A model generated the notes under the pieces. That model was not told the DNA's origin. It searched no databases and saw only the letters and a program-made list of their open reading frames with translations. The position numbers and the translations under genes were made by a program. Positions 11,590 through 56,958 of a stretch of DNA of 64,000 nt are shown here, in pieces (position 1 is the stretch's first letter; each line of letters opens with the position of its first letter). The stretch comes from Thermococcus sp. LS1 (lineage in GTDB: Archaea > Methanobacteriota_B > Thermococci > Thermococcales > Thermococcaceae): contig NZ_SNUJ01000001.1 in NCBI RefSeq assembly GCF_012027395.1, positions 124,001 through 188,000 on the forward strand, in the 5' to 3' direction.

Positions 11590-12198
11590 TCACATCACCT
11601 TCCTGTAGTAGAGTTGGCCAGCGAGGTAAGCAAATCCCCAAGTCGCGAGGAGGAAGTAGAGGGGCGTCTCATTCAACTCCCAAAGGCCGAAGATGTCTCC
11701 GATGAGCACTACCGCGAGGAGCGTTATCATGGCATCGCTCACAAGGGCCTTGCTCCTCAGCTCTATCAGCTCCTCCCTCTCGTCCGTTATCGGTTCTTCA
11801 GCTTGGATTTCCTTCGAGTGCCTGCGGGCAAAGGTAATCCAGAGGGCCACGCCGAGAAGGAAGACCGCGAGAAGGAATGGCCTGGACGTGCTTGACTTCA
11901 TCGCCGTGGCCATTACTCCTGAGAGGAAGCCGAAGAGAACACTCAGAGTTAGGAGCTGAGGCAGGAAACTTCTCCTCGATATCAAATCCTCTCGGGTTAC
12001 CGCCGTCAGCAGAAAACCTCCAAAGAAGGCCACGCCAAAGGTGAAGACCCCAACGAAAAGCGGGAACCAGCTCTCCGGAAGCTCGTAGCTCACCACCATC
12101 GTCCCGCCACTTTCCACGTAAAGCCAGACGAGGTAGAGGATATAGGTGAGTGCAAACACCAGGAGCAGGCCGGCAACGTTCCTCTTCCAGCGCTCCAT
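11590..12198 (-). CDS. Membrane protein, first gene of XRE/ABC operon
   Basis: A 202-residue protein with about six membrane helices; the soluble connector carries DEREELIELRSKA, the same patch as in the next two proteins. The ATG at 12198 has GTGGGAG 5 nt upstream. The promoter lies at 12210-12252, with a TATA box and two perfect tandem palindromes over the expected transcription start. As first gene of the operon it is the likeliest partner, through the membrane, of the XRE regulator and the NatAB-like exporter (inference). I do not recognise a characterised family. Confidence 0.72.
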   Translation of the reverse strand: MERWKRNVAGLLLVFALTYILYLVWLYVESGGTMVVSYELPESWFPLFVGVFTFGVAFFGGFLLTAVTREDLISRRSFLPQLLTLSVLFGFLSGVMATAMKSSTSRPFLLAVFLLGVALWITFARRHSKEIQAEEPITDEREELIELRSKALVSDAMITLLAVVLIGDIFGLWELNETPLYFLLATWGFAYLAGQLYYRKVM

Positions 12199-12209
12199 GC
12201 TCCCACCAT

Positions 12210-12241
12210 GTAAAGTTTCCTTTACGTAAAGCTTCCTTTAC
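12210..12241 (-). promoter_or_regulatory. Two tandem perfect palindromes (operator) at the XRE/ABC operon promoter
   Basis: GTAAAGTTTCCTTTAC (12210-12225) is followed without a gap by GTAAAGCTTCCTTTAC (12226-12241). Each is GTAAAG-N4-CTTTAC with perfect 6-nt arms, and they repeat every 16 nt. A TATA box TTATAA at 12246-12251 reads toward the operon on the minus strand, placing the transcription start near 12222, inside the operator. The ribosome site starts at 12201. Such a position implies repression. The likely binder is the operon's own XRE protein (inference). Confidence 0.7.
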
Positions 12242-12299
12242 ATCCTTATAAGCTTTGCCCCTCAAAGTTTTTAAAGAGCGGGGAAGAAGTTCCATCCGC

Positions 12300-12386
12300 G
12301 CGGGGGTAGCCGAGCCTGGCCAAAGGCGCGGGATTTAGGGTCCCGTCCCGCAGGGGTTCCGGGGTTCAAATCCCCGCCCCCGCACC
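12300..12386 (+). tRNA. tRNA-Leu (anticodon TAG)
   Basis: An 87-nt cloverleaf with acceptor stem GCGGGGG/CCCCCGC, anticodon stem CGGGA/TCCCG closing the loop TTTAGGG (anticodon TAG, reading CUA and related Leu codons), a long type II variable arm and T-arm GGGGTTCAAATCCCC. The CCA end is encoded. A TATA-like TTTTTAAA lies about 25-30 nt upstream. No intron is seen. Confidence 0.95.
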
Positions 12387-12820
12387 AAAACAGCCCTTTG
12401 CTGGCGCAAAGCGCTGGCGGAAAGAGTGCGTGCTTTTGTGAAGTGCCAAATTCTCAAGGGGTTTACTCTCTAAATGGCGGTTTTACAGTGTTTGCTCCCC
12501 TCGAGGCATCCTTCGGGTGCCAGAACAAAAAGCAAACTACTTGAAAGGCTCTTCTTGAAGTCAAACCCGCTTTTAGTGGAGGTTTAGAGAGTGCACGCCA
12601 ATGCTCCTAGCGTTTTATAAGAAGGGCGCTCTTTGATTAAACTTTGCTATGCAAAGTTTATTTGCCCGCGCAAAGTTTCATCAAGGTTAGCATGTCAAGT
12701 CCAACATCAGTTAAAAGGCTTGTTTGAAGAATCAAATTGCACAAGCAAAATCCGTTGCCCAAACTTGTCCACTAAACGTTATAAATATATCCGTTTTATT
12801 TCGCAGCCAGGTGATTTAAG
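12387..12820. repeat. Gene-free spacer with hairpins and dispersed repeat units
   Basis: 434 nt without a convincing gene. It holds a long-range perfect inverted repeat ACTCTCTAAA (12465-12474) / TTTAGAGAGT (12583-12592). It also has a tight hairpin AAACTTTGC-TAT-GCAAAGTTT (12639-12659). Two units are shared with the spacer at 33230-33572: GGCGGTTTTACAGTGTTT at 12476-12493 and GTTTCATCAAGGTTAGCATG at 12675-12694. The promoter of the next gene, with TTATAAATATA, is at about 12779-12790. Confidence 0.6.
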
Positions 12821-13948
12821 TTGGAGAACGACGCTCATAAGTTCGACCTTGATGGTGCATTCGTTCTAATCCCCAAGAAGCCCGATTTGAAATATCTCTA
12901 CATAGAGATAACCAACCGCTGCAACCTCCGCTGTGAGATGTGCTTCAAGCAGTACTGGGAAGACGACGAAGGTGACATGGACTGGGATCTCTTCATCAAG
13001 ATACTCGATGATGCAGAGGAGCTTCCAGAGCTGGAGATGATTTACTTTGGTGGCATAGGCGAGCCAACGGTTCACCCCCGCTTCATGGACATGGTCAGGG
13101 AAGTGAAGAGACGCGGCTTTGCCCTCGGCATAAGCACCAACGGATTCCTCCTTACGGACAAGCGAATAGAGGAGCTTGTGAAGCTTGGGGTTGACTTGAT
13201 ATACTTCTCGATCGATTCCGTACCGACGCAGCCAGCCGACATTGGACATATAAAGCCAGACTACACCGGATCCCGCATCAGGAAGATTCAGGAGGCCAAG
13301 AAAAAGCTGGGAAGGGACGTTCCCCACATAGGCGTTGAGGTCGTGGCGACAAAGGAGAACTACAAGGAGCTACCCAAGATAGCGCACTACGTTGGCTCTC
13401 TGGGTGTCGATACGCTACTCATCTCAAACATCATTCCAATAAACACGGAGCATGCTGATATGATAGTCTATGATGGTAGCGTGGACATGAAGCCGATAGT
13501 TGACAAGCTCCAAGCCATCTACCATGGCTATCTACAGAAGATAGCAGAGTTCTCCCTGAGGACAGAACGGCACTGTGAGTTCATTGATAAGAAAGTGGCC
13601 GTAGTAAGGTGGGATGGTGAGGTAGCTCCCTGCTACCGCTTCTTGCACACATATCCCGAGATAGTCTTCGGCAGGGAGAAAATAGTCACCGCTTACTCCT
13701 TCGGCAATGTTCGGGAGAAGAGCCTAGCGGACATTTGGACGAGTAGGGAGTACAGTTGGTTCAGATTCGTCGTTAAGAACTCTCTATATCCAAGCTGCAC
13801 TGACTGTCCGCTCAATGAATCCTGCTCCTTTGTCCGGGATACAAACTCCGACTGCTGGGGCAACAGCCCGAGCTGCGCGGACTGTCTATGGTCCAGGCGC
13901 ATAGTCCTCTGCCCAATACCCGAAAAGGGTATGAAGGGCTTTTGGTAG
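12821..13948 (+). CDS. Radical SAM maturase for tungsten aldehyde ferredoxin oxidoreductase
   Basis: A 375-residue radical SAM protein. The SAM [4Fe-4S] motif is CNLRCEMC (CX3CX2C) near residue 30, followed by YFGGIGEPTVHP. The C-terminal third is Cys-rich (CTDCPLNESC, CWGNSPSCADCLW), as in SPASM/twitch domains holding extra clusters. Proteins of this type sit directly upstream of tungsten oxidoreductase genes and are annotated as tungsten cofactor oxidoreductase maturases; here the next gene is AOR. The start is a TTG at 12821 with AGGTGATT 5 nt upstream. The exact reaction is not established. Confidence 0.85.
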   Translation: MENDAHKFDLDGAFVLIPKKPDLKYLYIEITNRCNLRCEMCFKQYWEDDEGDMDWDLFIKILDDAEELPELEMIYFGGIGEPTVHPRFMDMVREVKRRGFALGISTNGFLLTDKRIEELVKLGVDLIYFSIDSVPTQPADIGHIKPDYTGSRIRKIQEAKKKLGRDVPHIGVEVVATKENYKELPKIAHYVGSLGVDTLLISNIIPINTEHADMIVYDGSVDMKPIVDKLQAIYHGYLQKIAEFSLRTERHCEFIDKKVAVVRWDGEVAPCYRFLHTYPEIVFGREKIVTAYSFGNVREKSLADIWTSREYSWFRFVVKNSLYPSCTDCPLNESCSFVRDTNSDCWGNSPSCADCLWSRRIVLCPIPEKGMKGFW

Positions 13949-25278: not shown

Positions 25279-26181
25279 TCAACTTAGTTTGAACGGTATC
25301 TCTGCCTCCCCACCTTTCTCGATTTTGTGAAGTTCCCGCCTGTAAGCCTCCAGCGGCCGGTCTTCAACCTTCAGGTAGCCCGCGAATGTCTTTGGTCTCT
25401 CCTCGAGCTCGTCGAAGAACCTCGGATAGTTCTTATCCCTGATGATGTGGTGGTCGAGTATTATCTCTGCTCCTGTTTCGCGGATTATCTCGTTGAGGTT
25501 TTTAATGCCAGCCTGCCAGCTTCCCTCAGCGCGCTTACCGAGGTATGTCGGTGGTCCCCCAGTTATGAGCAAATCTGGAACCCTCTCGATTATCCACTCT
25601 ACAGCTTTTTTGTTGAGGAGCTGAATATCGCTCGCGTGGATTGCTCTCTCAGAGCCGTCATCGATGAGCGTCATCACAACGAAGCCGAGCCTGGAACCTT
25701 CGCTTCCATGGGGAACGGCTGGGGAAAACTCCAACTCAACGCCGCCGAGGTCGAAGGATTTGCCGTCCGCGAACTCAATCTTCTTCGCTATCGGTTCGGC
25801 GTTTTTGAGGAAGGCCCAAGCGCGCTTCCTCTGGCTGAAGTTTATGTTTTCCCGTGGGTGCTTTATGAAAAGGAGCTTTCTCTCGTATATCTCCCTCGCG
25901 TAGCTCTCGTTTGAGCTCTCGTACAGACCTTCGAAGAACGGTGTGTGGTGGTCGTAATGATAGTGGGAAATAACGACAACCTCACTCCTCCGCGCGTAGC
26001 CCTGAAGCTTCCGTCTCATCTTCTGGAGTGCCTCCATCTCGGCCTTCGCTGGTGGAAGGCCGTAGCGCTTCGGCCCGAGGGCGACACCGGGGTCAATGAG
26101 AATTTTTATTCCTCCAGCTTCCACGAACGTTGCCAGGCTCCTCACCCCAAGACTTTCGGCCGCGAGAGGAACGATGCGCAT
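25279..26181 (-). CDS. UPF0282 metallo-beta-lactamase fold hydrolase
   Basis: A 300-residue member of UPF0282 with the metal-binding HYHYDHH motif (residues about 74-80). A later His (VPHGSEGS), the Asp in HASDIQLL and the closing LDHHIIRD provide the remaining ligands. The substrate is unknown. The ATG at 26181 follows GGTGAT; a 14-nt duplication upstream creates a second, out-of-frame copy of the same start region. It lies between the flavodoxin remnant and the divergently read RadA-like gene. Confidence 0.88.
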   Translation of the reverse strand: MRIVPLAAESLGVRSLATFVEAGGIKILIDPGVALGPKRYGLPPAKAEMEALQKMRRKLQGYARRSEVVVISHYHYDHHTPFFEGLYESSNESYAREIYERKLLFIKHPRENINFSQRKRAWAFLKNAEPIAKKIEFADGKSFDLGGVELEFSPAVPHGSEGSRLGFVVMTLIDDGSERAIHASDIQLLNKKAVEWIIERVPDLLITGGPPTYLGKRAEGSWQAGIKNLNEIIRETGAEIILDHHIIRDKNYPRFFDELEERPKTFAGYLKVEDRPLEAYRRELHKIEKGGEAEIPFKLS

Positions 26182-26279
26182 TTTATCACCCGCATTTTAT
26201 CACCTTTCCACAACACCTATACCAAAGTCAGAATTAAACCATTAAATATTTATCATACATAATAGACAATAAACAGGTG

Positions 26280-27220
26280 ATGAGATTGGGCGATAAAATT
26301 GAAGACCTTCCTAGTGTGGAGCCAGATATTGCAAAGAAACTACGCGATACAGGATACGACACAATTGAGTCCATTGCAATTTCTTCTCCAATGGAACTGA
26401 GGGAGATAGTTGGAATAAGCGAGAGTGCCGCTTTGAAAATAATTCAAGCCGCTAGAAAAGCTTCTTCACTGTTTATTAGTGCAGAAGAATACAAGAAGAG
26501 ACTTGAAGCAGGAGATAAGATTTCAACAGGAAGTCTCAACCTTGATTCTATTCTTCATGGTGGTATTTGGATAGGGGGTATAACCGAAATCTATGGAGAG
26601 TCTGGGAGTGGCAGAACCCAATTTGCACATGCAGTTGCAGTAATGGTTCAACTCCCTTCTACTAAAGGTGGCCTTAATGGTTCGGTGATATGGATAGACA
26701 CTGAGAATTCATTTAATCCATACAGAATAAAACAGATAGCGGAAAACAGAGGGCTTGATTCTGAGGAAGTTCTTAAAAATATATACACTGCTAAAGCGTT
26801 TAACAGCAATCATCAAACTTTCTTAGTGAATAAAGCTGAGGAGATTATCCAAGAAAAAAATAGAGGGAGATAGACCAGTAAGAATGCTGGTAATTGATTC
26901 AATATCAACACACTTCCGAGTAGAATACACCGGTAGAAATGCCTTATCTTTGAGACAACAGCACTTGGCAAGACATTTATTTGATCTCCATCGATTAGCA
27001 GATATGTACAAGGTAGCTGTTCTTATAACTAACGATTCGTATCGAGGACAACCATGGGGTGGTTCCATTATGAAGGTGGCTTCTATGTTTAGACTGTATA
27101 TACGAAAAAAAGGGAAGCAAAAACTCAAACATAAGGGTTGCCCATGTAGTTAAATCCCCTTACATAGATACTGCAACGGAAGCTACATTTAGGATAACTG
27201 AAAAAGGAATAGAAGACTGA
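26280..27220 (+). pseudogene. RadA-like recombinase paralog with two +1 frameshifts in A7 runs
   Basis: The frame resembles archaeal RadA from the HhH domain ([20 protein letters not shown]) to the C-terminal ITEKGIED, but is broken twice. The first break is at A7 26854-26860: without one A it reads [17 protein letters not shown], as in RadA. The second is at A7 27105-27111: without one A it continues RKKGSKNSNIRVAHVV to the stop at 27218-27220. The corrected protein would be about 313 residues. Walker A is GESGSGRTQ, with Arg for the essential Lys, and the L2 DNA-binding region is reduced to TNDSYRGQPWGGS. A TTG at 26286 with AGGTGAT upstream may be the real start. The gene is visibly more AT-rich than its neighbours. 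Confidence 0.8.
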
Positions 27221-27383
27221 AGTATTAAACAGTATTAAACTACGAGGGGGATAAGTTTATTAGCCAATTCACAGATACTCTCGGTAGAGGTGAGGATAAG
27301 GCACCTTTAACCTGTGATGACCTTCCTTGGAGAATGCTCCTTTGGCCAAAAGAAGGTCGTAAAGGGAGATTTAGTCTGTCAAC

Positions 27384-27440
27384 CGATGATGAGTGTCATC
27401 CCTCCCGAGGAGACGATGAGGACATTATCCCCACCTGAGG
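27384..27440 (+). ncRNA. C/D box sRNA with two guides against 23S rRNA
   Basis: Box C ATGATGA (27386-27392), D-prime CCGA (27405-27408), C-prime ACGATGA (27413-27419) and D CTGA (27435-27438) have archaeal spacing. The D-prime guide TGTCATCCCT (27394-27403) equals plus-strand 54412-54421. The D guide TTATCCCCA (27425-27433) equals plus-strand 54391-54399. Both are therefore complementary to the 23S rRNA, at neighbouring sites in domain V. The box+5 rule points to the rRNA bases opposite 54418 and 54396 for ribose methylation. The 3-prime end overlaps the leader of the next gene. Confidence 0.75.
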
Positions 27441-27447
27441 TGGTCTC

Positions 27448-27912
27448 ATGTTTGGATTTTTGAGACGAAAGAAAAAGGAGAAATACGGGCCGCTCGTTTA
27501 CCTGAGCGAGCCCACGATACTTTACCACACTCACACAGAGAAGGTCATCCTTGAGCTACTTGAGGAGAAGCTCGGCTCGAACAACTTCATAGTTCCTTCA
27601 AACTATGGACTCAAGAGCACAGATCACATGATAAAGGACGCGGAGGTATTTGTGGCTATAGCCATAGTGGGCAAGTTCACCTCCCTCGTTGTCAGAGAGA
27701 TAAAAATCGCCCAGGAGCAGGGAAAGAAGATCTACACTCTCGATGTGGCCAGAAAGGGCGACGAGATTCTATACCTCTTTGAGGAAGGCATCCCGGAGAG
27801 GATTGAATGGCTCTCCCCGGAGGAAACGCAGAGCCTCTACGCGGCCTTCCGCGGCGAGGATTTCTCAGGCTTCATGAAGTTTTTCTTCGGCGACAGAAAG
27901 AGGCAGTGGTAG
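27448..27912 (+). CDS. Hypothetical protein, Rossmann-like
   Basis: A 154-residue soluble protein. A basic start (FLRRKKKEK) is followed by alternating strands and helices: PLVYLSEPT, a helix VILELLEEKLG, then DAEVFVAIAIVGKFTSLVVRE and KKIYTLDV. The middle loosely recalls nucleoside 2-deoxyribosyltransferase or TIR-like folds, where a strand-loop carries a buried acidic residue, but no catalytic set is clear. The ATG follows GAGGTGG, which can pair with CCACC just upstream (27431-27443). No family recognised. Confidence 0.75.
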   Translation: MFGFLRRKKKEKYGPLVYLSEPTILYHTHTEKVILELLEEKLGSNNFIVPSNYGLKSTDHMIKDAEVFVAIAIVGKFTSLVVREIKIAQEQGKKIYTLDVARKGDEILYLFEEGIPERIEWLSPEETQSLYAAFRGEDFSGFMKFFFGDRKRQW

Positions 27913-27927
27913 AGAAGAAAAGAGGTG

Positions 27928-29376
<1,449 letters not shown>

Positions 29377-30225
29377 TCAGATCACCCCCTTCTCCCTCAG
29401 CTTGGCGAGGTATCTCTCCCTTGCAATTTTCTCCTGCTCCGCAAAGCGGGCGTTCCTCTTTATGGCATCGTCCCAGTCTATTTTGTGAGCATCCATCATT
29501 GGCCCGTCCCTGCAAGCGAACTTTATCTCACCGTCGTAAAGAACCCTGCACGAACCGCACATTCCGGTTCCGTCGACCATTATCTGCCTGACCGTGACTA
29601 TCGTAGGGATTCCGTAAGGCCTTGTTAGCTCAGCGAGCTTTTTGAGGGAGCCAAGCTTTCCGCCGCCGAAGACTATATCCACCTTGTCCTTCTCGATGAG
29701 CTCCTTGAGGACATCAAGGTAGTGGCCCTTTATGCCAACGCTCCCATCCTCCGTTGTGAGGTAGTGCTCGTCCGCCACTGGTTTTGCGAGGTACTTCTCT
29801 GGATAAACGTTTGCGGCGTTCTCAAAGGTCTGAATCGCTATAGTGTAGTTTCCAACCTCTTTCATGGCCTTGAGCGTTGCGTAGCTCTCAGCCTGTGCAC
29901 AGACGGCATCCGAGACAAAGACAACGTTGCCGTAGTACTTGACGTCAATCGGCTTTCCAAGGGGGCCCGTTATGCTTAGAATCTCGTCTCCAACGTCGAA
30001 CTCATACCAGAGCTTGAAGGTTGTGATTCCATGGCGCCTGAGAAACATACCTATCCTCCCATCATCAGCATAATAGACAGACATCGGGACTCTCTCGCCC
30101 TTCTCATCGGGGATCAAAACCACAAACTGACCCACCTTCCAGGAGCGGGCTATGTGGGGTGCCTCAACCTCCATGAAAAAGTCTATGGCGCTCAGGTTCT
30201 CCTTTTTTGTTATCTTATATCCCAT
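29377..30225 (-). CDS. Nfn/sulfide dehydrogenase small subunit (NfnS/SudB-like), copy 2
   Basis: A 282-residue partner of the large subunit: FAD-barrel domain (SWKVGQFVVLIPDEKGERVPM), a nucleotide-binding domain, and the [2Fe-2S] loop GTGMCGSCRVLYDGEIKFACRDGP. I start it at the ATG at 30225, with AGGTGGTG upstream, giving MGYKITKKENLS; the reading from 30252 lacks a site. The promoter has a TATA element at about 30283-30290 and two exact SurR-type motifs. It is first gene of a two-gene operon and paralogous to 147-1013. Confidence 0.92.
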   Translation of the reverse strand: MGYKITKKENLSAIDFFMEVEAPHIARSWKVGQFVVLIPDEKGERVPMSVYYADDGRIGMFLRRHGITTFKLWYEFDVGDEILSITGPLGKPIDVKYYGNVVFVSDAVCAQAESYATLKAMKEVGNYTIAIQTFENAANVYPEKYLAKPVADEHYLTTEDGSVGIKGHYLDVLKELIEKDKVDIVFGGGKLGSLKKLAELTRPYGIPTIVTVRQIMVDGTGMCGSCRVLYDGEIKFACRDGPMMDAHKIDWDDAIKRNARFAEQEKIARERYLAKLREKGVI

Positions 30226-30267
30226 AATGCACCACCTTGAGCATGTGTTCAAACTTGTTCACCTAAG

Positions 30268-30284
30268 GTTTTGAACCTAAGGTT
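30268..30284 (-). promoter_or_regulatory. SurR-type motif, downstream side of the Nfn operon 2 TATA box
   Basis: GTTTTGAACCTAAGGTT is an exact fit to GTTn3AACn5GTT. For the minus-strand operon it lies between the TATA element (TTTATATT, 30283-30290) and the expected start near 30258. A factor bound here should block transcription. SurR binding is inferred. Confidence 0.65.
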
Positions 30285-30299
30285 TATATTCCTTTTTTA

Positions 30300-30316
30300 A
30301 ACCAAAGGTTCAGAAC
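30300..30316 (-). promoter_or_regulatory. SurR-type motif, upstream side of the Nfn operon 2 TATA box
   Basis: On the minus strand this reads GTTCTGAACCTTTGGTT, again an exact GTTn3AACn5GTT. It lies about 10 nt upstream of the TATA element, the position from which SurR activates in P. furiosus. It is in opposite orientation to the motif at 30268-30284, so the promoter is flanked by a pair. Confidence 0.65.
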
Positions 30317-30429
30317 CCCGAGCCACCCTAAAAAAGTTCTCTGCAGGCTTTATTAGGGACGGCTAAAGGATAAATCCGGCGAGGAAGACTTTTTATCATA
30401 TCATGCCAAACCAATACAAGGTGATGGAA

Positions 30430-31215
30430 ATGGTGAAAATACCCAAGAGCCATCCGCGCTACTGGAGCCTCTACTATAGAGAGAAGATCATCGAGGGAAT
30501 GGAGAAGGGAATGACGGCGAAGGCCGGTTTGATCGCCCACGGTAGGGGAGAGGCCTTTGACTACCTCATCGGCGAAAGGACGATAGAACCTGCCGAGAGG
30601 GCCATGCGGGCAGCAGTCGCGAAGCTCCTCCTTGCGGAGCATCCCATTGTCTCCGTGAACGGCAACGTTGCCGCTCTGGTGCCGAAGGAAACGATAGAGC
30701 TCGCCAAAGCACTCAATGCCAAGCTCGAAATAAACCTCTTCTACCGCACAGAGGAGCGTGTTAAGGCGATAGCAGAAGAACTCCGCAAATACGATCCCGA
30801 GATAGAGCTCCTCGGTATAAACCCAACGAAGAGGATTCCCGGCCTAGAGCACGAACGTGGCAAAGTCGATGAGAACGGCATCTGGAAGGCTGATGTCATC
30901 ATCGTTCCCCTTGAGGACGGTGACAGGACTGAGGCCCTCGTTAAGATGGGCAAGTTCGTGATAACCATTGATTTGAACCCATTATCTCGTTCGGCGAGGA
31001 TGGCAGATATAACCATCGTAGACAACATCGTTAGGGCTTATCCAAGGATGACAGAGCTCGCCCGTGAAATGAAGGACTACAGCAGGGAGGAGCTCCTCAG
31101 AATCATCGAGGAGTACGACAATGGAAAAACGCTGAGCGATGTACTGCTCCACATAAGGAACAGACTAACTAAGCTCGCGGAAGGTGGGATATGGCGAAAG
31201 AAGCAGCTCGATTAG
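30430..31215 (+). CDS. 4-phosphopantoate--beta-alanine ligase (phosphopantothenate synthetase)
   Basis: A 261-residue archaeal enzyme joining 4-phosphopantoate and beta-alanine with ATP in coenzyme A synthesis; it replaces bacterial PanC. It matches the T. kodakarensis enzyme in length and in the start MVKIPKSHPRYWSLYYREK, with further family segments LIAHGRGEAFDYLIGE, VNGNVAALVP and TIDLNPLSRSARMADITIVDN. The ATG at 30430 follows GGTGATGGAA; upstream in-frame ATGs lack a site. It diverges from Nfn operon 2. Confidence 0.95.
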   Translation: MVKIPKSHPRYWSLYYREKIIEGMEKGMTAKAGLIAHGRGEAFDYLIGERTIEPAERAMRAAVAKLLLAEHPIVSVNGNVAALVPKETIELAKALNAKLEINLFYRTEERVKAIAEELRKYDPEIELLGINPTKRIPGLEHERGKVDENGIWKADVIIVPLEDGDRTEALVKMGKFVITIDLNPLSRSARMADITIVDNIVRAYPRMTELAREMKDYSREELLRIIEEYDNGKTLSDVLLHIRNRLTKLAEGGIWRKKQLD

Positions 31216-31225
31216 AGGTCGCCCG

Positions 31226-31957
31226 TTAGAGCTCCATCTCTGTCTTTTCTACCAGTTTTCTCAGCCCTGTTATAAGTTCTGCCTCACTTCCCGCGTGGGA
31301 GATCACCAGTGGGACCCTCTCGCGCTCGGCCAGCTTTACCGCAAGCTCATCGAGCTTCTTGACGCCGTGGAGGACGACTACTGCCGGCTTGAGCCCCTGA
31401 ACGCGGACGGCTATCATTGGACTCCTTCCGGTCGTTACCTTGGTGAATATCAGCGCTCTCTCGGTCGTCCAGCCGTAGAGCTTGAGGAACTCCTCCGCTG
31501 ACATCTCGAGGATCGCCTTTATACTGTCAACGACTGTGTAGCCGTATATCCTTCTATCCAGGAGGTGCATGTTTGCAACAACTTCGCCCTTGACGGCTCC
31601 AACGAGGTCTTTGATGGTGATGGGCAGTGCGAACTCCCTTATATCAAGGATAGCGCTCGTCGGAAGCTCACTTCCAAGAGTCTTGCTGAAGGCTTTTATG
31701 ACGTTTCCTCCCCTGCGCTCGTCTATCTCCAGAAGAGCCTCAACAAACTTCCTGATGGTCGAGGCACCGGGGCTCTTTCTCCTCCCGCCCTCGTAGTCGC
31801 TTATGACGGAAGAAGAGACGCCGAGGTATTCGGCGAGCTCCGTCTGACTTATGCCGAATATCTCCCTCCACTTGCGCATAGTCTTTCCGGGGTCGGAGGA
31901 GAGGGTTATTTCTCCTGCTATTCTCTTGGCGAGAGCTTCTTTCTCCTTTTCAAGCAT
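31226..31957 (-). CDS. XRE-family transcriptional regulator with C-terminal sensor-like domain
   Basis: A 243-residue protein with a helix-turn-helix at residues about 22-75 (KTMRKWREIFGISQTELAEYLGVSSSVISDYEGGRR). A C-terminal domain of about 140 residues is found in archaeal relatives (GWTTERALIFTKVTTGRSPMIAV, then KPAVVVLHGVKKLDELAVKLA). The latter looks like an alpha/beta sensor, ligand unknown. TTTATAACG lies about 25 nt before the ATG and no ribosome site is visible, so the mRNA is probably leaderless. It is convergent with the PPS gene, 10 nt apart. Confidence 0.85.
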   Translation of the reverse strand: MLEKEKEALAKRIAGEITLSSDPGKTMRKWREIFGISQTELAEYLGVSSSVISDYEGGRRKSPGASTIRKFVEALLEIDERRGGNVIKAFSKTLGSELPTSAILDIREFALPITIKDLVGAVKGEVVANMHLLDRRIYGYTVVDSIKAILEMSAEEFLKLYGWTTERALIFTKVTTGRSPMIAVRVQGLKPAVVVLHGVKKLDELAVKLAERERVPLVISHAGSEAELITGLRKLVEKTEMEL

Positions 31958-32314
31958 AGTGAAAGATATTCGTCAATCGTTATAAACCTTTCGGCAATTG
32001 CCTAACAAGCAAACTTTTCTTGAGAAAGGTTGATCAAAAGTGATTAACTTCCAAGATTGCAGCTTTACAGTGCATTCTCCTTACTTGGCTTGCTTGTTGA
32101 GGGGTTCATTCACCGAATGGCGGTATTTATGCGAGTTCTCTCCCAGCTAACGTCCTGTGGGCATCTAAAACAAAGTGAACTCGCGTTAAACAGGTCATTT
32201 TAAGTTGAATCCCGGCTTGGCCAGTAATTGGAAGATTAAATGCAGTTTCAGAGTTGCCCACGTTTGGCGGTCAAGCTTAAAAACCTCTCATCCTACGCTG
32301 GGTCGGTGGGAAAA
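31958..32314. other. Spacer between regulator and dphB
   Basis: 357 nt without a supportable gene. The left end holds the TATA of the regulator (about 31978-31986). The middle contains AATGGCGG and CTTTACAGTG segments (about 32061-32125) that echo the repeat units at 12476-12493 and 33316-33333, but in degraded form. The right end holds the dphB ribosome site GGTGGG. Confidence 0.45.
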
Positions 32315-33109
32315 ATGGCGATATACTTCATTGGGTTGGGACTCTACGACGAAAAAGACATCACGCTTAAGGGCCTTGAGATGGCCAGAAAGTGCGACCT
32401 TGTCTTTGCCGAGTTCTACACATCACTTTTAGCCGGGACGACGCTTGATAAGATTGAAGAGATTATAGGGAAGCCCATCAGGAGGCTCAGCAGGGAAGAA
32501 GTCGAGCTCCAATTTGAGAGAATCGTTCTTAGCGAGGCGAAGGACAAGGACGTCGCCTTTCTAACCGCGGGTGACCCTATGGTGGCAACCACTCACTCCG
32601 ACCTCCGCATAAGGGCGAAGGAGATGGGAATCGAGAGTTACGTCATCCACGCGCCGAGCATCTATTCCGCTATAGCCATAACCGGCCTCCAGATATACAA
32701 GTTCGGCAAGAGCGCAACCGTGGCTTACCCAGAGAAAAACTGGTTTCCAACGAGTCACTACGACGTGATAAAGGAAAACAAAGAGCGGGGACTTCACACG
32801 ATGCTCTTCCTTGACATAAAGGCCGATCAGAATCGTTACATGACAGCTAACGAGGCGATGGAGATTCTCCTTCAGGTTGAGGAGATGAAGGGTGAGGGTG
32901 TTTTCACGCCTGATACGCTGGTAGTCGTTCTTGCACGTGCGGGCTCGCTCAATCCGACGCTCAAAGCTGGCTACGTTAGGGACATGCTCAACGAGGACTT
33001 CGGCAGACAGCCGCACGTTATGGTCGTTCCGGGAAGGCTGCACATTGTTGAGGCAGAATACTTAGTGGCCTTCGCCGGTGCGCCGAGGAAGATACTCGAG
33101 GAGGTCTAG
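32315..33109 (+). CDS. dphB: Diphthine synthase
   Basis: A 264-residue SAM-dependent methyltransferase that methylates the modified histidine of elongation factor 2 during diphthamide synthesis. It has the tetrapyrrole-methylase-like fold: start MAIYFIGLGLYDEKDITLKG, the loop LTAGDPMVATTHSDLR, HAPSIYSAIAITGLQIYKFG, and VVLARAGSLNP near the C-terminus. The ATG at 32315 follows GGTGGGAAAA; the longer frame from 32240 has no site. It is followed 42 nt later by tRNA-Val. Confidence 0.96.
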   Translation: MAIYFIGLGLYDEKDITLKGLEMARKCDLVFAEFYTSLLAGTTLDKIEEIIGKPIRRLSREEVELQFERIVLSEAKDKDVAFLTAGDPMVATTHSDLRIRAKEMGIESYVIHAPSIYSAIAITGLQIYKFGKSATVAYPEKNWFPTSHYDVIKENKERGLHTMLFLDIKADQNRYMTANEAMEILLQVEEMKGEGVFTPDTLVVVLARAGSLNPTLKAGYVRDMLNEDFGRQPHVMVVPGRLHIVEAEYLVAFAGAPRKILEEV

Positions 33110-33151
33110 CGAAAGCTTTATATTTTCGTTCCCTTCCACTATTCCCGGGAC

Positions 33152-33229
33152 GGGCCCGTGGTCTAGCCTGGTTATGACGCCGCCCTCACACGGCGGAGGT
33201 CCGGGGTTCAAAGCCCCGCGGGCCCACCA
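33152..33229 (+). tRNA. tRNA-Val (anticodon CAC)
   Basis: A 78-nt cloverleaf: acceptor GGGCCCG/CGGGCCC, anticodon stem CCGCC/GGCGG with loop CTCACAC, T-arm CGGGGTTCAAAGCCCCG, encoded CCA. A TATA box CTTTATATTTTC lies about 30 nt upstream at 33115-33126, between dphB and the tRNA. Confidence 0.95.
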
Positions 33230-33572
33230 TAAGAAACTTTTGCCAAGCAAAAATTTCATCAAAGTTGGCATGCTTCTTTGAATTGCTGGTTTTCGAATGG
33301 TTTCTACGAGCAGAAGGCGATTTTACAGTGTTTCACTGTGAGTGTGACGCCCAAAGGGCGTCAAAAGGGAAAGTTGAAACAACTCAAAAAGCCAAATTTA
33401 AACAGAAACCACTTGCCCTTGCAAATTCTCTTTTGATGTTGTTTTATGCTGGTTCTCTTGCAAGAAGAAGCCCATAGGCCGTCGAAGACACTCGGAACTT
33501 GACAAATCTAAAAGAGACGTACAAGCTTTGATGAACCTCTAACGAGCAACTTTTGCTCGGCAAAAGTTTCTA
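33230..33572. repeat. Repeat-rich spacer between two tRNA genes
   Basis: 343 nt with no gene. Each end carries a hairpin of the same family: GAAACTTTTGC-CAA-GCAAAAATTTC (33233-33257, one mismatch) and AACTTTTGC-TCG-GCAAAAGTT (33548-33568, perfect). Inside are ATTTCATCAAAGTTGGCATG (33253-33272) and GGCGATTTTACAGTGTTT (33316-33333), the two units also seen, in the opposite order, at 12476-12694. A small hairpin GACGCCCAAAGGGCGTC lies at about 33348-33364. Confidence 0.6.
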
Positions 33573-33650
33573 TGGCGGGCCGGGCGGGATTCGAACCCGC
33601 GACCTTCGGCTCCGGAGGCCGACGCTCTATCCAGGCTAAGCCACCGGCCC
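33573..33650 (-). tRNA. tRNA-Arg (anticodon CCG)
   Basis: A 78-nt cloverleaf on the minus strand: acceptor GGGCCGG/CCGGCCC, anticodon stem TCGGC/GCCGA with loop CTCCGGA (anticodon CCG), T-arm GCGGGTTCGAATCCCGC, encoded CCA. A TATA-like TTTTTAAATC lies about 27 nt upstream. It is convergent with tRNA-Val across the repeat spacer. Confidence 0.95.
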
Positions 33651-33793
33651 ACGCCCATAACTACTCGAGGGGTAGATTTAAAAACCTAATTCCGGAATCG
33701 GCTGGACTTAATAGTACATGGAAGCATCAAAAAGCACAAAAACTTTTTAGCTAAGGCACCCTACATACAGTAAGGAAGAGGAAGGTGATACCC

Positions 33794-34159
33794 ATGGAGC
33801 CCCACGAGTTCAAGCTCACCGAAGAAGGTATAAAGGCGGTTCTCCCACCCCTCGAGGCAGAAATAATGGAACACATGTGGAAGGTTAAGGTGGCCACCGC
33901 CGGCCAGGTCTACGAATACATGAAGGAGAAGCATCCCGACATAAGGCGCTCCACCATAAGCATTCTCATGAACCGCCTCTGCGAGCGCGGTCTGCTCAAA
34001 AGAAGCGTTGAGAAGGGAAGGGGTGGTATGAGATACGTCTACTCAATAACCACCACGAGGGAAGAGTTCGAGGAAAAAGTAGTGGAGAGCATTCTCGATG
34101 CCCTCATGACGAACTTCAGGGAGGCAACCTACGCGTATCTCTCCAAAATTAAGAAGTGA
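33794..34159 (+). CDS. BlaI/MecI-family winged-helix regulator
   Basis: A 121-residue regulator of the penicillinase-repressor family: EAEIMEHMWKVKVATAGQVYEYM (helix-turn), STISILMNRLCERGLLKRSVEKG (recognition helix and wing), YVYSITTTREEFEEKVVESIL and a C-terminal dimerisation helix. It heads an operon with an M48 metalloprotease; BlaI homologs in bacteria are released by a membrane M56/M48-type protease, so the pair may be a protease-controlled switch (inference). The ATG at 33794 follows GGTGATACCC. Confidence 0.87.
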   Translation: MEPHEFKLTEEGIKAVLPPLEAEIMEHMWKVKVATAGQVYEYMKEKHPDIRRSTISILMNRLCERGLLKRSVEKGRGGMRYVYSITTTREEFEEKVVESILDALMTNFREATYAYLSKIKK

Positions 34160-34165
34160 TGAAAG

Positions 34166-34948
34166 ATGCTCTTCATCATAATAGCCCTTGAGGTCCTGCT
34201 GGCAGTTATAGCCTTAGAGGAGCTGGGCCTCAAGATATCACTGGCAGCGTTCGGACTCATATTTGCATTCTACCTGTGGGTCTCCACCCACGACATCAAG
34301 GGCAACTATATTACCCTTGAAAGAAGCGAGATCCCCTGGCTCTACGATGGCATAGCCAGAATGGCAAAGAAGGCGGGCCTTCCAATGCCAAGGGTTTTCA
34401 TCCTTGACGACTACATTCCAAACGCATACTCATTTAAGAACACGATAGTCCTCTCCCTTGGACTGTTCGAGGTTCTTGACCAGGACGAGATACTCGCCGT
34501 TGCCGCCCACGAACTCGGCCACATAAAGAACGGCGACACAAAGATGTTTCCCCTTATAGCATACGGCAGGTACCTCATGATTGTGTTCACAGCGGTGCTG
34601 ATTTTCCTCGCCCACAGCCTCGCGGTCACGATAGCGGCACTCGGACTGTACGGGCTCTACGAGGTTACCCGTGCCAGCTTCCTGAAGAACAGGGAATTCC
34701 AGGCGGACGAAACCGCACTCAGACTCTTAGACGTCCCCATGAGCTTGAAGCGCGCCCTTGAGGAGCTCAAATACTACGAGGATCTCAGGATAGGAGTCAG
34801 GTTGAGCTCGTTGCCGAGCATTGAGCCGGCAATAGAGAGGAAGCAGAAAACGGCCATCATAGAGACCCATCCAAGTTATGACGAGAGGATATTCAGAATC
34901 CTCGTTGAGATAAATGGTAGCAATCTGTTCAACAGGCGCATGCAGTGA
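34166..34948 (+). CDS. M48 family membrane metalloprotease
   Basis: A 260-residue zinc protease of the HtpX/M48 type. Two N-terminal membrane helices are followed by a cytoplasmic domain with PRVFILDDYIPNAYSF and the zinc motif AHELGHIKNGD. Two more helices follow (MIVFTAVLIFLAHSLAVTIAA) and then the third ligand Glu in LKNREFQADETA. It lies 6 nt after the BlaI-type regulator gene and overlaps the dCMP deaminase gene. It may serve quality control or signal to the regulator. Confidence 0.88.
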   Translation: MLFIIIALEVLLAVIALEELGLKISLAAFGLIFAFYLWVSTHDIKGNYITLERSEIPWLYDGIARMAKKAGLPMPRVFILDDYIPNAYSFKNTIVLSLGLFEVLDQDEILAVAAHELGHIKNGDTKMFPLIAYGRYLMIVFTAVLIFLAHSLAVTIAALGLYGLYEVTRASFLKNREFQADETALRLLDVPMSLKRALEELKYYEDLRIGVRLSSLPSIEPAIERKQKTAIIETHPSYDERIFRILVEINGSNLFNRRMQ

Positions 34949-35493
34949 TGGCTATGAGCGTTGAAATCTTCCTTGATAGGAAAAAGGCAGAGCGCATAAA
35001 GCGCATCAGGCCGACCAAGGACGAGTACTTTATGCTGATAGCGAAGCTTGTTAGCCTTAGGGCAACCTGTCCAAGGCTCCGCGTCGGCGCCGTTGCCGTC
35101 AAGGACGGGTACATACTTGCAACAGGCTACAACGGTGCGCCGAGGGGAATGGAGCACTGTATTGATGTAGGCTGCCTCATAGTGGACGGCCACTGCCACA
35201 GGGCGGTTCACGCGGAGCAGAACGTCATAGCCATGGCAGCCAGAAAGGGCATAAGCCTCGAAGGGGCAACGCTCTACGTCACCCACTTTCCCTGCGACAC
35301 CTGCTTCAAGTTAGTTATCAACGCAGGCATAAAGGAGATAGTATACGAGGAGATGTACCCCAACGAGGCAACTGAAATACTCCTCAGGGAAGCACAGGAG
35401 AAAGGAATAGTAAAGATAAGGCAGTTCAGACTCCCGAAAGAGAGAGTGAGGCTCTTCCTGGAGGAGCTCTTCGGAGAGTTTGTGGAAGGTTAA
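34948..35493 (+). CDS. Deoxycytidylate (dCMP) deaminase family protein
   Basis: A 181-residue zinc-dependent deaminase converting dCMP to dUMP for dTTP synthesis. Zinc and catalytic motifs are HAEQN (the proton-shuttle Glu) and PCDTCFK. Substrate motif GYNGAPRGMEHC and an extra Cys/His set (CIDVGCLIVDGHCHRAVH) match the dCMP deaminase group. The ATG at 34948 overlaps the protease stop by one base (TGATG); an ATG two codons later is also possible. No ribosome site is visible, so coupling is likely. Confidence 0.88.
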   Translation: MAMSVEIFLDRKKAERIKRIRPTKDEYFMLIAKLVSLRATCPRLRVGAVAVKDGYILATGYNGAPRGMEHCIDVGCLIVDGHCHRAVHAEQNVIAMAARKGISLEGATLYVTHFPCDTCFKLVINAGIKEIVYEEMYPNEATEILLREAQEKGIVKIRQFRLPKERVRLFLEELFGEFVEG

Positions 35494-35855
35494 AGCTTCT
35501 TCTCTATTTTCTCCAGCCGCTTGTTCATCTCCTCCAGCTCTATGGCGATTTTCCTTGTAAGTTCGGTTATCTCGCGCTCGGCTTTGTCGACAGCGAGGTA
35601 AACCCTGAACGTCAGTATATACGCAAGGCCGATGCCTATAACGAAAAGAGCATCGAGACCTCTACCAAGGCCAAGAACGCGTTTTATCTCTTTGGCTATC
35701 TCGACTGGAAATATGGCCACTATTAAGATACCCACGAGTAATGACTCCCAGAACAGGAAGTCTCCCCACTCAAATTCCTTGCGCCCATACCTTCCAAGCA
35801 CATAGACCATCAAGGCGAGAACAATAACTATAGTTATGTACTGAACCGCATACAT
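35490..35855 (-). CDS. DUF2304 family membrane protein
   Basis: A 121-residue protein with three membrane helices (QYITIVIVLALMVYVLG, FWESLLVGILIVAIF, LFVIGIGLAYILTF) and a C-terminal coiled coil (REITELTRKIAIELEEMNKRLEKIEKKL region). DUF2304 proteins commonly follow glycosyltransferase 2 genes and may help present the lipid carrier. Here it follows the HAD-GT2 fusion gene. The ATG at 35855 follows AGGTGATGGGT; other in-frame ATGs upstream lie inside this site. Confidence 0.85.
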   Translation of the reverse strand: MYAVQYITIVIVLALMVYVLGRYGRKEFEWGDFLFWESLLVGILIVAIFPVEIAKEIKRVLGLGRGLDALFVIGIGLAYILTFRVYLAVDKAEREITELTRKIAIELEEMNKRLEKIEKKL

Positions 35856-35860
35856 ACCCA

Positions 35861-37183
35861 TCACCTCAGTTTATCGAACAGCAGATTAAGAGCTATCTTG
35901 ATCCCCTCCAGGATGTTTGTGCCCTTCTTCATGGAGTACTCCGTATAGACTGCTTTAATGGGAACTTCCACAATCCTGCAGCCGTTCCTCGAGGCCTCTA
36001 TGATTATCTCGCTTGAAACTGCATAGCGGTCGCAGGTTATCGTTATTTTTGACGCACACTCACGACTAAAGCACCTCAGTCCGCTCTGGCTGTCGCTGAC
36101 GTACTTCCGCGCGAAGACCGCGGTTATGGCATCAAGGACGAAGTTGCCAAAGCGCTTGACGAAGGGCATCTCGCTCGTGTCGCCCTTGAGCCTCGAGCCA
36201 ACTGCAAAGTCGGCTTTGCCCTCGGCGACTGGCTTCATAACGCGAAGGGCATCACTCACTAGGTGTTGACCATCGGCATCAAAGGTGAGTATAAGTCTCG
36301 CATTCTTCCTGAGGGCATAGGCAATGCCCGTCCCAAGAGCCCCACCGAGGCCTCGGTTGACAAGGTGGGTAAGGACGTGAACGCCTCTGGAGCGTGCTAC
36401 CTCGGCTGTTTTGTCCCTGCTGCCATCGTTGACGACGATTATCTCTTCAGCCCGGAAGTAGCGCAGGAGATCGTTAAGAACTGTCCCAATGGTTCTCTCC
36501 TCGTTGTAGGCAGGAACGACCACGTATGTACTCAATAGGTTCTCCAACAGCGGAAGGAGGCCTTTAATCGTTTTAATCTCGAAGTTCGGCTTCGCCTCAA
36601 CGCTGAAACTCATCCTCCCGGCGGTGTGGTCAGTGATCATGACGCTCAGCGCACCTAGCTCTCGGGCGGGAATTATATCGTAGCCGTGATCTCCAACGAC
36701 GAGAACCTTGCTCGGCTCGACCCCAAAGGCGGTAATTATCCTTTCAAGCTGACCAGCGTTCGGCTTGACTTCTCCGGCTGGAACATCGTCCCGGGTGGAT
36801 ATCAACGAGAAGTAGTCCTTAATGCCGTTCATCTCAAGGGCCCTCATCGTTGCCTCACGGGAACTCCTCGTCATTATCGCCATTGGAATGCCCCTTGCCT
36901 TTAGGAACTCCAGAACGTCGAGAACGCCATCGAAGAGAAAGCTCTCCTCTATTCGTTCCACTTCGAGCTCGACCATTATCGAGTATAGCTCCTCAAAGCT
37001 TCTCCCCGTTTCCTTCGCTATCCGATGGAGATTCTCGTACATTGGAGTGAGGTCACCAATGATATCCTCGGGAATTCCCATCTCCAGCAACCTTGATTTA
37101 AGCTCCTCCTTGACTTGGGCAAAGGGCTTTGGTGCCCCAATGAGGGTTCCGTCGAGGTCAAAGACGACGAGCCTTATATCCAT
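35861..37183 (-). CDS. Fusion of HAD phosphatase and family 2 glycosyltransferase
   Basis: A 440-residue two-domain protein. Residues 1-210 form a HAD hydrolase: FDLDGTL (nucleophile Asp), MTRSS, a Lys in EVKPN and the acidic motif VVGDHGYD. From about residue 225 a GT2 domain of the dolichyl-phosphate mannose synthase type follows: YVVVPAYNEERTIG, VVNDGSRDKT, FDADGQH (DxD) and a C-terminal QSGLRCF. It likely moves a sugar from a nucleotide donor to polyprenyl phosphate. The ATG at 37183 has GGTGAA 5 nt upstream. It diverges from a GlcNAc-1-phosphate transferase gene. Confidence 0.9.
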   Translation of the reverse strand: MDIRLVVFDLDGTLIGAPKPFAQVKEELKSRLLEMGIPEDIIGDLTPMYENLHRIAKETGRSFEELYSIMVELEVERIEESFLFDGVLDVLEFLKARGIPMAIMTRSSREATMRALEMNGIKDYFSLISTRDDVPAGEVKPNAGQLERIITAFGVEPSKVLVVGDHGYDIIPARELGALSVMITDHTAGRMSFSVEAKPNFEIKTIKGLLPLLENLLSTYVVVPAYNEERTIGTVLNDLLRYFRAEEIIVVNDGSRDKTAEVARSRGVHVLTHLVNRGLGGALGTGIAYALRKNARLILTFDADGQHLVSDALRVMKPVAEGKADFAVGSRLKGDTSEMPFVKRFGNFVLDAITAVFARKYVSDSQSGLRCFSRECASKITITCDRYAVSSEIIIEASRNGCRIVEVPIKAVYTEYSMKKGTNILEGIKIALNLLFDKLR

Positions 37184-37238
37184 GGCTTTCACCGAAGGGT
37201 TTATTTTTGGGCCGTTGTAACACCGGTGGGTGTCTAAT

Positions 37239-38147
37239 ATGATAGCCGTTGCTCCGCTTATAGGTTTAACCCTGACACTCATCATGACGCCATACATCGC
37301 AGAAAGGATGAGAAGAGCCGGCATTGTCGGGAGGGACATTCACAAGCTTGACCAGCCGGAAGTACCGGAGATGGGTGGAATCGCCCTTATCCTGGCCCTG
37401 CCAGTCGCACTCTCGCCGTTTCTGACTGATGAGATTGCCCGGGTGACAATGGTGTTTCTCCTCTTTGGAATCCTCGGCGTTGTTGATGATCTAACCAACC
37501 TGAGGCAGCTTCACAAGGTTATCCTCTCACTTTTCGTGTCAATCCCAGTTGCTGTCATAGGGGTTTCATCCCATATCGACATCTTCGGCTTTGACCTGAA
37601 CCTCGGGATACTATATCCCATCTTTGCCGTGCTCTTTGTAACGGGTTCAGCTAACTTGGTGAATATGCTTGCTGGATTCAATGGACTCGAGATTGGCACC
37701 TCCGCCATAGCACTTCTCTTCCTGGCACTGATAACAGACGGAAGTGCTCAACTGCTTGCGCTTACCGGTCTCGGTGTGGCTCTAGGCTTCCTGTGGTGGA
37801 ACAAGTATCCAGCGAAAGTCTTTCCCGGCGACACTGGAACGCTCAGCATGGGGGCACTTATAGGATTAATAGGAATTATTGGAAAAGCCGAGGTTTATAC
37901 CGCAATACTCCTAATCCCACACTTTTTAGACTTCATCATAAAGGCAACGAGCGTTCGCTTTGGGGTGAGAAGACACGGAAAAACTAAAGTCCTTCCGGAC
38001 GGGACACTCCAAGCACCACCTTATCCGAGCTTTTTGGGGGCGATAATGAGAAAAACAAGAGTGAACGAGCCAAAGCTTGTCGCGATAGTCTGGCTGATAG
38101 AGGCTACTCTTGGTCTTCTCGTCTTAGTTCTTCATCAATTACTTTGA
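37239..38147 (+). CDS. Polyprenyl-phosphate GlcNAc-1-phosphate transferase (GPT/MraY family)
   Basis: A 302-residue membrane enzyme with about ten helices. It transfers a HexNAc-1-phosphate from UDP to dolichyl phosphate, the first step of N-glycan lipid assembly. Family motifs are HKLDQPEVPEMGGIAL, the metal Asp pair in GILGVVDDLTNLRQ, NLVNMLAGFNGLE and FPGDTGTLSMGA. The start is the ATG at 37239 with GGTGGGTG upstream. The neighbour on the other side is a GT2 enzyme of the same pathway type. Its 3-prime end overlaps cas6 by 44 nt. Confidence 0.9.
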   Translation: MIAVAPLIGLTLTLIMTPYIAERMRRAGIVGRDIHKLDQPEVPEMGGIALILALPVALSPFLTDEIARVTMVFLLFGILGVVDDLTNLRQLHKVILSLFVSIPVAVIGVSSHIDIFGFDLNLGILYPIFAVLFVTGSANLVNMLAGFNGLEIGTSAIALLFLALITDGSAQLLALTGLGVALGFLWWNKYPAKVFPGDTGTLSMGALIGLIGIIGKAEVYTAILLIPHFLDFIIKATSVRFGVRRHGKTKVLPDGTLQAPPYPSFLGAIMRKTRVNEPKLVAIVWLIEATLGLLVLVLHQLL

Positions 38148-38853
38148 CCATGCCAAAGCCATACCTGGTTTTTTCTCCAAAGCCGTTCTCATAGCCAAAG
38201 CGAGCTATCTCGAGGGAGCCGCGGTAGCGGAATATCATCAGAGAGCCACGATAGTATGTGTCCTTCACGAGTATCCGGACGGGCTTAAACTTGATAACGT
38301 CTATGTTGAAATCCCTATCTTCAGGCATGGAACCCATGATCGCAGAATAGCGCATCAGCATGACCTTGCGGAGCTTATCGAAGAATGCCTCCTCGTTCGG
38401 GTAGAGATCCCATATCTTCATCCTGTTGCTGCTGAGCTTGACTGTTCTTACCATGATAGGACTAAGGGTCGAGAAGAGGGCACTATCCTTTATCTTGGGC
38501 TCCTTTAAAATCTTTATATCCTCGGCTATGAAGGCAGCCTCCCCTATCTGAAGGATGGGACTATCGATAAAGCCCTCAACAACGGCCTTTATGAGCTCGC
38601 TGGAGGAGGAAGAGACATAGAGGGAAACATCATCGGAGAGAACTCTTATGCCCCGGTCAGGGATGAGCTCGCGCTTCCTCACCATTATGCGGGAGAATGT
38701 GAAGTAATCAACGTGGCTTACTTCAGCCTCACGGGCAATCTCGGGAGAAACAATCGCCATCTTCTCTATGAGTTGGGCATAGACATCGTAGTTGTAGTTG
38801 AAGGGAAGAATTGTGCCCTCCTTTGTGGGTCTAAACTTTATCTCAACCCTCAT
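38104..38853 (-). CDS. cas6: CRISPR pre-crRNA endoribonuclease Cas6
   Basis: A 249-residue Cas6. It cuts CRISPR precursor RNA within the repeats. The two ferredoxin-like folds are recognisable: start MRVEIKFRPTKEGTILPFNYNY, His47 in VSHVDYFTFSRI aligned with the catalytic region of P. furiosus Cas6, TLSPIMVRTV, and the C-terminal glycine-rich loop NGFGEKTRYGFGMVKV. No other cas gene and no repeat array lie within the window, so it must serve arrays elsewhere. It overlaps the convergent transferase gene by 44 nt. Confidence 0.9.
   Translation of the reverse strand: MRVEIKFRPTKEGTILPFNYNYDVYAQLIEKMAIVSPEIAREAEVSHVDYFTFSRIMVRKRELIPDRGIRVLSDDVSLYVSSSSSELIKAVVEGFIDSPILQIGEAAFIAEDIKILKEPKIKDSALFSTLSPIMVRTVKLSSNRMKIWDLYPNEEAFFDKLRKVMLMRYSAIMGSMPEDRDFNIDVIKFKPVRILVKDTYYRGSLMIFRYRGSLEIARFGYENGFGEKTRYGFGMVKVIDEELRREDQE

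Positions 38854-53884: not shown

Positions 53885-56958
<3,074 letters not shown>

Follow-up and report, generated by a model that had tools for sequence, protein, structure and literature searches.

The small RNA gene sR55 of Thermococcus sp. LS1 most probably encodes a double-guide C/D box sRNA whose 5' part doubles as the attachment site of elements that carry tyrosine integrases, a reading to which we assign a probability of about 0.87. The gene lies within the window, the whole stretch of 64,000 nucleotides that was analysed (positions 124,001 to 188,000 of contig NZ_SNUJ01000001.1), and the coordinates given below are those of the window unless a related genome is named. The evidence comprises the membership of the RNA in an established family, the pairing of its guides with 23S rRNA and, in relatives, split copies of the gene at both ends of integrase-bearing DNA.

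Identity and architecture of the sR55 locus

The covariance model RF01307 matched the window with cmscan at 63.3 bits (E 8e-14; gathering cut-off 35), the alignment covering model positions 1-65 and taking in the boxes, the terminal stem and both guide regions. By this match the RNA is not new and belongs to the already known family sR55. The sequence-only reading had proposed a C/D box sRNA with four boxes. Direct reading finds all of them at the positions it gave, in the order C, D', C' and D with guide regions between them, and the comparisons it had suggested, with catalogued C/D sRNAs and with related genomes, both support it, since the family scores above the cut-off in 83 of the 94 genomes of the order.

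27382 to 27440, plus strand: sR55 C/D box sRNA, Rfam RF01307 (cmscan and order-wide conservation)
27386 to 27392, plus strand: C box, ATGATGA (sequence)
27405 to 27408, plus strand: D' box, CCGA, which is CTGA in many relatives (sequence and family listing)
27413 to 27419, plus strand: C' box, ACGATGA (sequence)
27435 to 27438, plus strand: D box, CTGA (sequence)

The terminal stem read from the sequence consists of ACC (27382-27384) and GGT (27439-27441), and the D' box has CCGA in place of CTGA in several relatives as well. Compared with the RF01307 consensus, which resembles the sequences of group g9, the window's D'-to-C' spacer is 4 nt shorter and its D guide 2 nt shorter; the D guide of the window pairs over 9 nt with 23S rRNA, and the consensus is without its TTA part. 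A literature search, with subscription papers and supplements outside its reach, found no paper naming sR55 together with Pyrococcus.

Guide sequences and their targets in 23S rRNA

Both guides find their targets in the 23S rRNA gene of the same window, which occupies 53908-56937 on the minus strand.

27394 to 27403, plus strand: D' guide TGTCATCCCT, with 10 Watson-Crick pairs to 23S nucleotides 2517-2526, covarying at 27403
27425 to 27433, plus strand: D guide TTATCCCCA, with 9 Watson-Crick pairs to 23S nucleotides 2539-2547
54412 to 54421, minus strand: 23S target of the D' guide, with predicted 2'-O-methylation of G2520, opposite 54418
54391 to 54399, minus strand: 23S target of the D guide, with predicted 2'-O-methylation of G2542, opposite 54396

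On rereading, the matches of 10 and 9 nt reported earlier proved exact, TGTCATCCCT being identical to plus-strand 54412-54421 and TTATCCCCA to plus-strand 54391-54399. The box+5 rule also led to the bases that had been predicted, as 27400 faces 54418 (G2520) and 27430 faces 54396 (G2542). For each guide the target is the top anchored match within the 16S and 23S rRNA of the window. The D guide has two further matches in 16S rRNA, which was rejected as its main target at 8 pairs in each match.

The significance of these pairings was evaluated by shuffling both guides 200,000 times and counting the pairing over the box+5 base. At least 10 pairs were reached by the D' guide in 1.4% of the shuffles and at least 9 by the D guide in 7.0%, with both results occurring together in 0.09%; both guides with at least 9 pairs within 100 nt of each other were found in 0.03%. 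Taken singly, each guide is only moderately surprising, and the D guide alone (7%) is not convincing. The earlier argument that two neighbouring guides are hard to obtain by chance nevertheless holds at the level of the pair, and the pair, the Rfam match and the order-wide conservation together are not due to chance.

By alignment and standard numbering, G2542 corresponds to G2446 of E. coli 23S rRNA and G2520 to about 2422-2424, where a two-base gap makes the position ambiguous; both predicted sites are close to the peptidyl transferase centre. sR55 very probably steers two methyl groups onto rRNA of the catalytic region. The criterion in a study of 2015 (PMC4644070) was 9 or more Watson-Crick pairs across the box+5 base, and the guides of sR55 show 10 and 9. 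That work, which took in no member of this order, shares with the present case the feature of a pair of guides at most 100 nt apart in domain V of 23S rRNA. Elsewhere in the window, just upstream of the 16S gene, lies the H/ACA RNA Pab19 (RF02794; 58809-58912, minus strand).

Distribution and covariation with 23S rRNA

RF01307 matches at E <= 0.01 were present in all 74 good-quality genomes and in all six genera of the order, and in the genomes tested from the remaining genera of the class no match reached E <= 1e-5. Among the genera of relatives distinguished below, g1 appears to be Thermococcus-like and g9 Pyrococcus-like.

The core of the D' guide, TGTCATCCC, is kept in the 90 sR55 loci read, a count that takes in some genomes more than once. 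The base next to it, D' guide position 2 (window base 27403), varies together with the 23S rRNA. Group g1 and most of g9 combine a T in the guide with an A in 23S rRNA; the guide carries A in g8, g10, g11 and genome G052, with U opposite in g8, g11, most of g10 and G052. In the rRNA operon tree G052 is the sister of the remaining g9 genomes, so guide and 23S rRNA must have changed together at least twice independently. This compensatory change supports the predicted pairing of the D' guide with 23S rRNA. The sole uncompensated case seen concerns G092 (L158) and G093 (L142), whose 23S rRNA has the g1-type A while the guide is still of g10 type; one pair is lost and 9 are left.

The D guide TTATCCCCA is identical among the listed members of g1, g8, g10 and g11, and it is down to 6-7 pairs with its 23S site in g9 and g12. 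Because of this reduction, the double-guide reading is not universal: target pairing is conserved across the family for the D' guide, with compensatory change, and for the D guide in g1, g8, g10 and g11 only. A search for a substitute sRNA for the lost D guide of g9, using the pattern TTATCCCC-N(1-3)-CYGA, yielded scattered matches, and the contexts inspected were not C/D sRNAs.

The downstream open reading frame and alternative readings of the RNA

A conserved open reading frame follows sR55 closely.

27448 to 27912, plus strand: conserved 154-aa open reading frame, whose start codon in most members of the order lies 9 nt past box D

Box D overlaps the Shine-Dalgarno-like GAGGTG (27437-27442) of this frame, and sR55 and the frame are probably co-transcribed. 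For the protein, neither Pfam nor NCBIfam gave a significant match; its AlphaFold model (pLDDT 79) weakly resembles the fold of nucleoside 2'-deoxyribosyltransferases (Foldseek E 0.012).

Three other accounts of the RNA can be weighed against these data. That the box-like sequence arose by chance is practically negligible, given the Rfam E-value of 8e-14 and a family conserved across the order; a chance origin of the guides was likewise rejected on the Rfam match and the shuffled-guide null. A more serious alternative accepts the RNA as real and takes the D' guide as its sole working guide, the D guide region being kept mainly for other roles, namely the C/D k-turn stem, a CACC-UGA-GGUG hairpin and the ribosome binding site in front of the following gene. 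The overlap of box D with GAGGTG and the short distance to the start codon fit this account, as do the g9 and g12 sequences, which lose D pairing yet retain CCCCAC-CTGA-GGTG, and the C before box D, which is kept despite facing a C in 23S rRNA. However, the outer TTA of the D guide is needed neither for the stem nor for the ribosome binding site, and it is unchanged across all listed members of g1, g8, g10 and g11, so that we regard a D'-only function as unlikely. In most genomes sR55 stands immediately 5' of the same frame and box D falls within the Shine-Dalgarno region, which could also indicate a 5'-leader k-turn whose main role is to control the 154-aa gene, the rRNA guides being secondary; snoRNAs located inside 5'-UTRs are in fact described from T. 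kodakarensis (PMC4247193). Such a primary role is very unlikely, since in G091, G095, G100 and G041 the frame is not adjacent to sR55 and the boxes and guides are still kept, and since the D' guide covaries with 23S rRNA. The double-guide sRNA remains the preferred reading of the RNA itself.

The region upstream of sR55

The DNA preceding sR55 differs between relatives, and the window itself is interrupted there. The left-hand neighbour of the site is a gene for a protein with a metallo-beta-lactamase fold (25279-26181), between which and sR55 the following features occur.

26191 to 27381, no strand assigned: 1.2-kb insert separating the left-hand flank from sR55 (blastn of upstream regions)
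26277 to 27222, plus strand: decayed radA copy with frame breaks, within the insert (Pfam Rad51 in two frames; translation)
27262 to 27381, plus strand: degenerate version of a promoter/leader segment that is conserved upstream of sR55 in many relatives (alignment)

By blastn, four genomes (G061, G053, G072 and G012) have an uninterrupted site with no insert; a promoter of about 50-60 nt stands there instead, near-identical among the four and containing the promoter-like AAACCTTAATAAG between left flank and sR55. An intact radA is present elsewhere in the window's genome, and the insert of the window is without an integrase. The same spot holds 5.2 kb of other genes in G065 and 1.2 kb in G013. 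At the same relative place, G054 carries an intact radA paralogue of 333 aa (L251:10571-11569). In G005 (L211), a PAPS-reductase-like protein and ATPases are encoded 1-6 kb upstream of sR55, which might be a putative defence cluster.

The leader segment, about 120 nt long between a TATA-like box and sR55, is common to several genera and was seen in L005, L022, L042, L061 and L055; it contains ACCGATGAY repeats near -73 and -183. It has no Rfam match, and the folding of the leader RNA gave a z-score of -0.64. The motif TAACCGATGAY was discarded as a genome-wide motif, with 0-4 copies per genome.

Split copies of sR55 and integrase genes

The attachment core predicted from the relatives falls in the 5' part of the RNA gene.

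27387 to 27399, plus strand: TGATGAGTGTCAT, attB core, duplicated at both ends of integrase-bearing elements in relatives

The sequence shared within TGATGAGTGTCAT, which takes the form GAGGAGTGTCAT in G068, covers the C box and runs into the start of the D' guide. In three genomes a piece of sR55 stands on the left-hand side, with the full gene 12 (G068), 22 (G014) and 34 kb (G054) away. The left side of G068 ends in GAACCGATGAGGAGTGTCAT near 968140 and the full sR55 is found at 980397, so the 18-nt direct repeat ACCGATGAGGAGTGTCAT has 12.3 kb of other DNA between its copies, within which an integrase gene is located at 978902-980167. G014 has the old promoter followed by the 15-nt direct repeat CCGATGATGAGTGTC near 28265, the full sR55 lying 22 kb on, and an integrase gene at 26697-28040. 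In G054, the 13-nt direct repeat TGATGAGTGTCAT is present near 11735 with the full sR55 at 45729 and an integrase gene at 11918-13177. The cargo of this 34-kb element (L251-L253, 11748-45733) resembles, by eye, a type I restriction-modification system. When 25-mers were drawn at random from these regions, 0, 0.3 and 1.4% of them had an upstream repeat of at least 18, 15 and 13 nt, respectively; by itself, the 13-nt repeat of G054 is only a 1.4% event.

A fourth genome, G060, retains the old promoter and ACCGATGATGAGTG beside the left-hand flank and has an integrase gene directly upstream of the full sR55. An inverted 11-kb segment corresponding to window 27387-38422 has broken the repeat pair, and the arrangement is best read as an integration with a later inversion. 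The region in question (1235380-1258623, L236/L207) consists of the 11-kb inversion and a 12-kb element with an integrase; the second break point matches window 38411-38422.

The integrase genes of the four genomes are homologous, and each stands beside one end of its element. With the Pfam Phage_integrase model, the cut-off was reached by the G060 protein only; that of G068 scored just below, that of G054 weakly and that of G014 not at all, for which reason these three were called by similarity to the G060 integrase. The ACC or GCC terminal stem and the C box of sR55 are kept after integration. Searches of the phage and plasmid collections yielded no free virus or plasmid that carries the integrase. 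In IMG/VR the 15-nt core had 17 matches, none of which lies in an sR55 context; they appear to be coincidental.

The variation upstream of sR55 might instead be ordinary rearrangement by inversion, deletion or homologous recombination, sR55 being just a frequent break point. Thermococcales genomes often undergo large inversions (PMC5495485), and G060 carries one at this very place. Against such an origin, the sR55 pieces of G068, G014 and G054 are in direct orientation around 12-34 kb of foreign DNA, they adjoin homologous integrase genes, and the left piece is attached to the old promoter or leader. Rearrangement without integration thus appears quite unlikely, and integrase-mediated insertion into sR55 is the reading retained below.

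Comparison with known integration systems

The use of tRNA and tmRNA genes as island sites by tyrosine integrases is described in the Islander paper (PMC4383910) and in an archaeal review (PMC8371274). There too a small conserved RNA gene is split and restored by the element, with a displaced fragment left to mark the opposite end. The sR55 case differs in that a C/D box sRNA gene is hit and the cut falls in its 5' part; unlike at tRNA and tmRNA genes, the new upstream DNA must on this account come with the element. In the review on archaeal tyrosine recombinases (PMC8371274) neither sRNA nor snoRNA is mentioned. The openly searchable literature yielded no description of archaeal integration into a C/D sRNA gene, an absence that is weak evidence.

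Inversions linked to pTN3-type integrases have been described in Thermococcales (PMC5495485), and G060 seemingly offers a similar integrase-linked inversion. Its break point lies in an sRNA gene, whereas those of the pTN3 type lie in tRNA genes, and the recombination in G060 is one that we infer.

Proposed mechanism and implications

As a guide RNA, sR55 would be transcribed from a promoter 5' of its own start, within the leader of the 154-aa gene. L7Ae, Nop5 and fibrillarin would bind its C/D and C'/D' motifs, the guides would pair with 23S nucleotides 2517-2526 and 2539-2547, and fibrillarin would methylate the ribose of G2520 and G2542.

As an attachment site, the gene would be split by integration, a piece of 13-18 nt staying beside the old flank while the arriving element reconstitutes the 5' end of sR55, with terminal stem and C box, and supplies new upstream DNA. 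Because the crossover would fall at the 5' end of sR55, the element must also bring a promoter, as TATA-like sequences suggest. Like a tRNA gene, a conserved RNA gene of this kind may be a dependable attachment site, its conservation deriving from the k-turn and from complementarity to 23S rRNA. We lean, somewhat beyond even odds, towards a fuller scheme in which the C box and the guide start form the crossover core, selection for pairing with 23S rRNA stabilizes the site and elements capture the upstream DNA, with an older insertion family in addition at the leader. The conserved leader with its ACCGATGAY repeats might then be the end of this second, older family, whose variable cargo would include, for example, the radA paralogue.

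The sRNA part of this work is mainly a confirmation, in which the 23S pairing is backed by compensatory change. The attachment-site result carries more weight, as it would extend the range of small RNA genes that integrases use to one for a C/D box sRNA and give a ribosomal guide sequence a second use. It also marks a variable spot in many genomes of the order, with a decayed radA, restriction-modification-like genes and other cargo, and makes sR55 a candidate target for tools that insert DNA into the chromosomes of these organisms.
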